44,238 nucleotides of DNA from Clostridia bacterium (lineage in GTDB: Bacteria > Bacillota > Clostridia > UMGS1883 > UMGS1540): positions 1 through 44,238 of the forward strand of contig JAFZQX010000020.1 of assembly GCA_017620205.1 (NCBI GenBank), given 5' to 3'. Below, piece after piece: positions 19,938 through 22,740 of this stretch (position 1 is the stretch's first letter; every line of letters begins with the position of its first letter). The position numbers were made by a program, and so were the translations under genes. The notes beneath the pieces were generated by a model that saw only the letters and a program-made list of their open reading frames with translations, did no database searches and was not told the origin of the DNA.

Positions 19938-19966
19938 TTGACAGGTTTAAAAAAGTATGTTATTAT
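19938..19966 (+). promoter_or_regulatory. metY promoter
   Basis: Perfect -35 TTGACA (19938-19943), 17-base spacer, -10 TATTAT (19961-19966). The transcript would start near 19973, giving a leader of about 185 bases that contains the short ORF at 20026. Confidence 0.8.
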
Positions 19967-20025
19967 CAATGCATACCAAACAGATATGTATTCTATGTGA
20001 TTGAAATCAAAGGACGGAAAGCAAT

Positions 20026-20106
20026 ATGTTTAATTACTATTTAAGCAAATGGTTTTTCCTTTTGCGGCAAAACTACAGATTCGGACGAATGTGTTACATG
20101 CTTTAA
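20026..20106 (+). CDS. Candidate leader peptide upstream of metY (26 aa)
   Basis: An ATG frame of 26 codons with AAAGGA 11 bases upstream (and GGAAAG closer) lies wholly in the metY leader, 51 bases before metY. The encoded peptide begins MFNYYLSKWFFLLR and ends in RFGRMCYML, so three of its four sulfur-residue codons (Met22, Cys23, Met25) sit just before the stop. A sulfur-residue cluster at the end of a short ORF in front of a Met/Cys biosynthetic gene is what a translation-dependent sensor would look like. An AT-rich stem AATTTAAA/TTTAAATT follows the stop and ends just at the metY ribosome binding site. No classical terminator is seen in the leader. Function is inference; the frame could be fortuitous. 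Confidence 0.5.
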   Translation: MFNYYLSKWFFLLRQNYRFGRMCYML

Positions 20107-20157
20107 TTTAAATACTGACTTACTACTATATTTTAAATTTGAAAGGATGTAATATAA

Positions 20158-21453
20158 ATGGCAGATATAAAAGATACTTCAAAATGGGGTTTTGATACAA
20201 AACAGTTACATATAGGACAGGAAAGCTACGATAAAGAAAGCGACGCAAGAGCCGTTCCTATATATCAGACAACTTCCTATGTATTTAAAAATTCGGCGCA
20301 CGCTGCAGCGCGTTTCGGTCTTGCAGACGCAGGCAACATCTACGGTAGACTTACAAACTCAACACAGGACGTTTTTGAAAAAAGAATTGCCGCACTTGAA
20401 GGCGGCGTAGCAGCACTTGCAACGGCATCAGGCGCTTCGGCTATTACATATACAATAGAAAACCTTGCCGAAGGCGGCGGCCACATTGTAGCGCAGAAAA
20501 CAATATACGGTGGTTCTTATAACCTTCTCGCGCATACGCTTCCGAAATACGGCATTAAAACAACTTTTGTTGATATCCATAATTTAGAGGAAGTTAAGGC
20601 CGCTATAACACCCGAAACAAAGGCAATTTATACGGAATCGCTTGGCAACCCGAACAGCGATATTCCGGATATAGACGCGCTTTCCGAAATAGCGCACGCA
20701 AACGGCTTGCCGCTCGTAGTAGATTCAACATTTGCTACTCCCTATCTTTTCAGACCGATAGAACACGGCGCCGATATAGTTATCCATTCCGCGACAAAGT
20801 TTATCGGCGGTCACGGCACAACGCTTGGCGGCGTAATAGTTGACAGCGGTAAGTTTGATTGGGAAAAGAGCGGAAGATTTGCATCGCTTGTAGATCCGAA
20901 TCCCAGCTATCACGGTATTTCGTTTACAAAAGCGGTCGGCGCCGCTGCGTTTGTAACTAAAATACGTGCGATACTCCTTCGCGATACAGGCGCCGCAATT
21001 TCACCGTTTAATGCATTCCTGCTCCTGCAGGGTCTTGAAACGCTTTCGCTCCGCGTTGAGCGTCACGCTGAAAACACAAAGAAGGTTCTGGACTTCTTAA
21101 GCGCGCATCCGCAGGTTGAAAAGATAAACCACCCGGCGCTTTTGGATCACCCACAGCATGAGCTTTATAAGAAGTATTACCCGAACGGCGGCGGCTCAAT
21201 ATTTACGTTTGAGATAAAAGGCGGTGCTAAAGAAGCGCAGGACTTTATAGACAGACTGCAGATTTTCTCACTCCTTGCAAACGTTGCGGACGTAAAATCA
21301 CTTGTAATCCACCCCGCAAGCACAACTCATTCACAGCTTTCGGAAGAAGAACTGCTTGATCAGGGCATTAAACCTAATACAATAAGACTTTCAATAGGTA
21401 CAGAAACCGCACAGGATATTATAGACGACTTAAAACAGGCATTCCAACACTAA
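20158..21453 (+). CDS. metY: O-acetylhomoserine sulfhydrylase (aminocarboxypropyltransferase)
   Basis: PLP enzyme that condenses O-acetylhomoserine with sulfide (or methanethiol) to homocysteine (or methionine). 431 aa, the length of the MetY branch, which is longer than MetB/MetC. The PLP lysine is K214 in HSATKFIGGHG; the cofactor region also shows TASGASAIT (89-97), NIYGRLTNSTQ (60-70) and DSTFATPYLFRP (189-200). ATG start with GAAAGGATG upstream. Single-gene transcript with its own promoter and a strong terminator, and a possible regulatory short ORF in the leader. cysK lies 1.3 kb downstream on the same strand but separate from it. Confidence 0.93.
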   Translation: MADIKDTSKWGFDTKQLHIGQESYDKESDARAVPIYQTTSYVFKNSAHAAARFGLADAGNIYGRLTNSTQDVFEKRIAALEGGVAALATASGASAITYTIENLAEGGGHIVAQKTIYGGSYNLLAHTLPKYGIKTTFVDIHNLEEVKAAITPETKAIYTESLGNPNSDIPDIDALSEIAHANGLPLVVDSTFATPYLFRPIEHGADIVIHSATKFIGGHGTTLGGVIVDSGKFDWEKSGRFASLVDPNPSYHGISFTKAVGAAAFVTKIRAILLRDTGAAISPFNAFLLLQGLETLSLRVERHAENTKKVLDFLSAHPQVEKINHPALLDHPQHELYKKYYPNGGGSIFTFEIKGGAKEAQDFIDRLQIFSLLANVADVKSLVIHPASTTHSQLSEEELLDQGIKPNTIRLSIGTETAQDIIDDLKQAFQH

Positions 21454-22641: not shown

Positions 22642-22670
22642 TTGACAAATAAAAAAAGTAGTGCTAATAT
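22642..22670 (+). promoter_or_regulatory. cysK promoter
   Basis: Perfect -35 TTGACA (22642-22647), 17-base spacer, -10 TAATAT (22665-22670). Like the metY promoter it has AAAAAAGTA in the spacer. Confidence 0.8.
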
Positions 22671-22673
22671 ATA

Positions 22674-22701
22674 ACCTATAAAACACGTAGGTGTTATAGG
22701 T
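22674..22701 (+). promoter_or_regulatory. Inverted repeat at the cysK transcription start (candidate operator or leader hairpin)
   Basis: ACCTATAAAACAC, loop GTAG, GTGTTATAGGT: an 11-bp stem with a 2-base bulge, beginning about 4 bases after the -10. It spans the expected transcription start, a usual place for a repressor site, and would also fold in RNA. No T-tract follows. Confidence 0.5.
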
Positions 22702-22740
22702 ATTTGTTTGGTAATTGAATTTTGAAAGGTGATGTTTTAA

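Follow-up and report, generated by a model that had tools for sequence, protein, structure and literature searches.

A short leader ORF lies between a predicted promoter and the O-acetylhomoserine sulfhydrylase gene metY in the stretch of Clostridia DNA analyzed here (44,238 nucleotides, hereafter the window), and it belongs to a family of conserved leader peptides that precede sulfur genes. We consider it moderately likely that this ORF is a cis-acting translational attenuator of metY, in which a pause of the ribosome at the codons CGA-AUG(-Cys), probably caused by a shortage of Met- or Cys-tRNA, would turn the sulfur genes on.

The 26-codon ORF that the first-pass annotation had placed in the metY leader was present exactly as claimed, from ATG to TAA, 51 nt ahead of the metY ATG (Table 1). 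The distance from its AAGGA sequence to the leader ATG was 11 nt, a slightly far spacing. Peptide profiles recovered the ORF in its own genome with E values of about 4e-7 to 5e-9, the window peptide being itself among the members of these profiles.

Table 1. Features of the metY leader region, in window coordinates
Feature	Position	Strand	Basis or remark
Predicted promoter TTGACA-17-TATTAT	19938-19966	+	Consensus match 11/12, TG ahead of the -10 hexamer
Candidate Rrf2/CymR-type operator, imperfect dyad ATGCATA-N9-TATGTAT	19969-19991	+	Spans the expected start site
SD-like AAGGA of the leader ORF	20010-20014	+	Read from the sequence
Leader ORF MFNYYLSKWFFLLRQNYRFGRMCYML*	20026-20106	+	26 codons, ATG to TAA
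Conserved core codons RQNYRFGRM (family RxN[F/Y/W]R[F/N]GRM)	20065-20091	+	Family comparison
Invariant codon pair CGA-AUG	20086-20091	+	Family comparison
Tail Cys-Tyr-Met-Leu-stop	20092-20106	+	Single Cys in the window copy
Predicted hairpin, 5' arm	20094-20114	+	Folding; overlaps the ORF end
Predicted hairpin, 3' arm	20130-20152	+	Folding; includes the metY SD AAGGA (20143-20147)
metY, O-acetylhomoserine sulfhydrylase	20158-21453	+	TIGR01326, 624 bits

When the metY leaders of 60 related genomes were read without assuming any ORF, a short ORF ending in R-M was found in about ten of them, mostly with the sequence [F/Y/W]R[F/N]GRM. The next residue was often Cys, as in MKNYFESLVRANFRFGRMCFCCK and MGNYFEELVRENFRFGRMCK, and sometimes the stop codon came directly after the Met, as in MNFMFEKLVRSNYRFGRM. 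Among 291 genomes of the class Clostridia, a motif-specific DNA pattern gave 22 sites, versus 4 for a backward-read control, and a protein profile detected relatives in 29 genomes. A second profile, restricted to the 18-residue core, was positive in 15 of 198 and 5 of 32 genomes of two further families. In a sample of 398 genomes of the phylum, mostly from outside the class, this core profile rendered, besides the window genome, one borderline partial match, with an AGG codon and no metY. For its part, a scan of named genomes yielded at least 120 stretches; among the matches listed, nearly all were from Clostridia, cultured isolates included, and those from outside were an Erysipelatoclostridium and a Treponema. 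The Treponema copy, from a metagenome-assembled genome, lies ahead of a URO-D/MtaA-like methyltransferase gene and reflects either horizontal transfer or a binning error. Relatives were found in many other genera, at the matching position before metY. No such ORF precedes metY in the nearest relative that has this gene (86% identical). Once all loci were merged, about 158 distinct copies remained; two or three (pattern-only copies such as L159 and L176) are probable chance matches, and the family occurs almost only in Clostridia.

The family consensus was MxxxFxxL[L/V]RxN[F/Y/W]R[F/N]GRM, after which came either a tail rich in Cys or directly the stop codon. R10, N12, R14, R17 and M18 (family numbering) were fixed in the 158 copies and G16 was nearly so, an invariance partly due to the selection of copies by pattern or score. 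The start codon was located 17 codons ahead of M18 in 131 copies, and an SD-like site preceded 117 of these (background, 21%). Over family codons 8 to 16, synonymous changes predominated and pN/pS was 0.16, which indicates that the peptide is under selection. Frame kept with synonymous bias in related metY leaders was the check that the first-pass annotation had named for its proposal of a leader peptide, and this proposal is now strongly supported by the conserved frame, the purifying selection, the SD, the spacing and the downstream sulfur genes. As for what defines a ribosome-mediated leader peptide, a short ORF with its own RBS, the sequences point to a conserved frame, start and SD; the conserved nascent-chain residues near the predicted stall codon that mark an arrest peptide were also found. 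The fixed RxNxRxG suggests, from sequence comparison, that the nascent chain matters too.

In agreement with the proposed function, metY was found downstream of 125 of the 158 copies, usually 49 to 110 nt from M18 to its start. For most of the remaining copies the downstream gene was metQ/NlpA or a sulfate/sulfonate transporter gene, with a sulfate-binding protein and a MetQ-fused binding protein among the products. The genome of the window contains a second, divergent ORF, MSFNFLKLNSAGVMKNGRMCSNARC, with the same AACGGACGAATGTGC core (contig C7, locus L041, 1234-1311), ahead of a gene for a small Cys-rich lipoprotein and one for an SsuA-type sulfonate-binding protein; by itself, the motif of this copy is not beyond chance.

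One codon stood apart from this synonymous freedom. The last core Arg (R17) was encoded by CGA in 44 of the 44 copies found by protein profile, and the CGA-AUG pair occurred in 158/158 copies, partly through the selection of copies, whereas R10 and R14 draw on all six Arg codons. Among all Arg codons, CGA accounts for 4.7% in the genes of the window and for 2.5% in metY genes. Its sole decoder in this genome is tRNA-Arg(ACG), read as ICG, the other tRNA-Arg species found being UCU, CCU and CCG, a set taken from a draft genome in which some tRNAs may be missing. Poor translation of CGA has been reported from a Salmonella his-leader assay (PMC4046918), and in yeast CGA in the P site disturbs elongation through I-wobble (PMC6301793). 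The fixed CGA suggests, from the sequence data, that decoding speed matters.

Conservation extended over six to eight consecutive bases, as would be expected if CGAAUGUG were recognized in RNA or DNA by a binding factor or a nuclease, the reading frame being secondary. We regard this as highly improbable, since most changes in the flanking codons are synonymous, purifying selection acts on the frame and the base ahead of CGA varies freely. Retention of CGA for base pairing was also judged unlikely, as the flanking wobble bases vary and the partners are not fixed, and a local ATTC-GGAC-GAAT hairpin was rejected, being absent where codon 15 is Asn. With a programmed +1 frameshift at CGA-A-UGU in mind, the +1 frame was compared with shuffles and was open somewhat longer (mean, 24 versus 17 codons), a difference that composition may explain.

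Downstream of the Met, 113 copies had a tail, with Cys within six residues in 109 of them; Cys made up 207 of 530 early tail residues (39%), and two or more Cys were counted in 74/158 tails and none in 46/158. In the other 45 copies the stop followed the Met directly and the whole core was retained, and therefore Cys cannot be the only signal. The stop was TGA in 36 of these 45 tail-less copies, compared to 26 of 101 metY genes (p 1e-9). We rejected selenocysteine at the TGA/TGY position, since TAA and TAG are found there as well and the frame did not continue into conserved sequence. As regulatory codons for the end product, Met is thus universal, and Cys is frequent but replaceable by a stop. 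The first-pass annotation had emphasized the Met-Cys-Tyr-Met-Leu end of the window peptide. This holds for the invariant Met and the common Cys, but the conserved part is RxN-aromatic-R-x-G-R-M, and Cys is not universal.

A simple Cys- or Met-tRNA attenuator in which the sulfur codons alone matter, as proposed in that annotation, would agree with the invariant Met, with the frequency of Cys in the tails and with the polycysteine leader ORFs described in mycobacteria (PMC4633059, PMC1262725). It would, however, have no need of CGA or of the conserved peptide ahead of the sulfur codons, it would leave the 45 of 158 copies with no Cys tail unaccounted for, and we consider it quite unlikely. The opposite emphasis, a TnaC-like metabolite-sensing arrest peptide, supposes that the RxN[F/Y]R[F/N]GRM chain itself arrests the ribosome while Met occupies the P site, ahead of Cys or a stop, with a sulfur metabolite bound (or absent), in tailed and tail-less copies alike. 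It fits the almost fixed core residues, the usual start distance of 17 codons and the tail-less copies, which keep the whole core and favor UGA, as expected of slow RF2 termination. A purely peptide-based arrest would nevertheless not need the fixed choice of CGA among six Arg codons, nor does it explain the enrichment of Cys in the tails; moreover, if the stall opens the RBS, a metabolite signaling plenty would turn a biosynthetic gene on, which is the wrong sense. This alternative thus appears rather unlikely, though less so than the simple attenuator.

The effect of the leader on metY translation was studied by folding. In the window, the predicted fold pairs the end of the ORF with the region of the metY RBS (Table 1), and the unpaired value of the metY SD rose from 0.22 in the free leader to 0.41 on removal of the sequence through +15 of the Met codon. 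The predicted opening is modest, and the fold of the whole leader was not unusually stable (z -0.99). Among 112 metY leaders, the SD was unpaired at 0.34, compared to 0.42 to 0.44 with the spacer shuffled. Removal of the 5' part through +15 nt past the Met codon increased this value by 0.21, versus 0.06 in shuffles (p about 1e-6), the predicted occlusion was weaker when leader ORFs were swapped between species (p = 0.007), and leaders of metY that lack the ORF were more open (0.52 versus 0.35; p = 0.03, n = 17), all p-values being optimistic because these tests count related leaders as independent. The predicted partners of the SD clustered at -15 to -9 and +6 to +12 around the Met codon, inside the footprint of a paused ribosome. 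Classified individually, 55 of the 112 leaders were occluded from the paused-ribosome segment, 17 from elsewhere, and 40 were open. An RBS that is paired and then freed by a paused ribosome, as in erm-type attenuators, is therefore predicted by folding as a family average, not for every leader.

No intrinsic terminator was found between the ORF and metY in the window leader, and intrinsic termination was rejected as the family mechanism, since terminator-like hairpins occurred in only 10 of 158 copies. One copy (L057, genome G258) has a strong intrinsic-terminator-like hairpin between the leader ORF and metY, with a longer spacer of 153 nt, and some lineages may use transcription attenuation instead.

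According to the translational attenuator that we prefer, metY would be off as long as its RBS is paired, within the leader RNA, to the 3' end of the leader ORF. A ribosome translating this ORF would pause at the invariant CGA-AUG(-UGN), CGA being read poorly and by the inosine tRNA-Arg alone; the pause may be reinforced by the arginine-rich nascent peptide, and a shortage of Met-tRNA (at AUG) or of Cys-tRNA (in Cys-rich tails) would lengthen it. The paused ribosome would then cover the bases that trap the SD and set it free, allowing the synthesis of MetY or, elsewhere, of MetQ or sulfate transport proteins. In this scheme the conserved frame and peptide, the codon constraint and the gene context come from sequence comparison, the occlusion and release of the SD are predictions, and we infer the pause, its trigger and the direction of regulation. 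Limitation of Met- or Cys-tRNA is the preferred signal because, for a biosynthetic or uptake gene, a pause should mean shortage. Against the scheme count the metY leaders that are open or occluded from elsewhere, the tail-less copies, the missing ORF in the nearest relative with metY and the modest opening predicted in the window. In addition, one Met codon alone would sense weakly if CGA did not sensitize it, and RxNxRxG is conserved more strongly than a pure codon-starvation attenuator needs. We tentatively suggest, as a possibility that falls somewhat short of even, that the leader senses through a codon pair and not through a run of codons: the bad, inosine-read CGA before AUG (then UGN) would turn one Met/Cys codon into a sensitive gauge of sulfur amino acid supply, helped by the arginine-rich, arrest-like chain. 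Sensing of Met/Cys by the window peptide, as first proposed, is plausible; that reading was right about a leader peptide but overlooked the invariant CGA, the arginine-rich core, the copies stopping after Met and the predicted RBS occlusion.

Control at the promoter was also considered. Dyads similar to that of the window follow the promoter in many metY leaders, including those of relatives without the leader ORF, and ACC-N10-18-GGT was present in 87 of 158 leaders, versus a mean of 43 in shuffles. The cysK leader of the window (22642-22705) contains a similar promoter and then a near-perfect dyad (ACCTATAA...TTATAGGT), likely an Rrf2/CymR-type operator judging from its sequence, without an RM leader ORF. 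In genome G000 (contig C7, about 17.7 to 20.2 kb), an Rrf2 gene about 1 kb from a cystathionine-synthase/lyase-like gene is a candidate CymR-type regulator. In five loci (L053, L060, L063, L064 and L005), the sequence preceding the leader ORF includes another conserved element, CTTTTAACCGGGAGACTTTATCGGAGTCAACCGGTTTT, which matched no Rfam family and may be a terminator or a regulatory RNA of unknown type. An Rrf2/CymR-type repressor as the main control, with the ORF merely tuning metY translation by coupling or reinitiation and sensing nothing, would be in concordance with the start-site dyad, found also in ORF-less relatives and at cysK, and with the three Rrf2 genes of the window genome. It would leave unexplained the conservation of the peptide end, of CGA-AUG and of the Cys/stop pattern, and the usual distance to metY is ill-suited to direct coupling, so we assign it a low probability. 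Judging from its sequence, the dyad at the metY promoter probably adds transcriptional control to the translational attenuation.

We know of no RxN[F/Y]R[F/N]GRM core or CGA-AUG pair in the polycysteine leaders of mycobacteria. Those of the mycobacterial cys operons (PMC1262725, PMC4633059) are alike in being short ORFs with Cys codons near the stop, located before sulfur genes and proposed to sense Cys, but they belong to another phylum, and leaderless translation with Rho-type termination was proposed for them, in contrast to the RBS occlusion predicted here. The uORFC-8-2 motif of Rhodobacterales cysS (PMC8632094) shares a Cys-codon leader ORF and ribosome-mediated control, but it uses an intrinsic terminator and precedes a tRNA synthetase gene in alphaproteobacteria. 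In the erm translational attenuators (PMC8274638, PMC5118997), as is generally known, a paused leader-ORF ribosome likewise frees the RBS of the next gene, but the trigger is a macrolide and the peptides are unrelated and without sulfur codons. Arrest peptides of the TnaC type (PMC8429421) share a conserved nascent peptide, in part ending straight at UGA; they differ in their Trp-induced stall and antitermination of a catabolic operon, and no sequence similarity was noted.

The same metabolic targets are controlled in Bacillota by T-box, S-box and CymR (PMC2940859). The first-pass annotation had described these as the norm in the phylum, which is fair, although leader peptides are known there too, such as the His leader peptide of bacilli (PMC2965389), and a CymR/Rrf2-like dyad, which may act in addition, is present at the metY promoter. 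Its statement that no riboswitch is evident was confirmed by an Rfam covariance search of the leader, which gave no family at threshold, S-box and T-box included, the weak sub-threshold matches not being sulfur riboswitches.

Known kinds of element include leader peptides, leader ORFs rich in Cys and attenuators that occlude an RBS. The peptide matched no family in NCBIfam or Pfam, no description of this leader peptide family was found in the libraries and open-access papers searched, and the open-access literature searched contained no Met-codon attenuator. Control elements of this family are widespread in abundant gut and rumen Clostridia, where they would act on sulfur uptake and methionine synthesis, and they have apparently gone undescribed. 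The family would add a leader peptide that uses a Met codon, and it would be a rare natural case of one strictly conserved synonymous codon, making a role of the I:A wobble in regulation directly testable.
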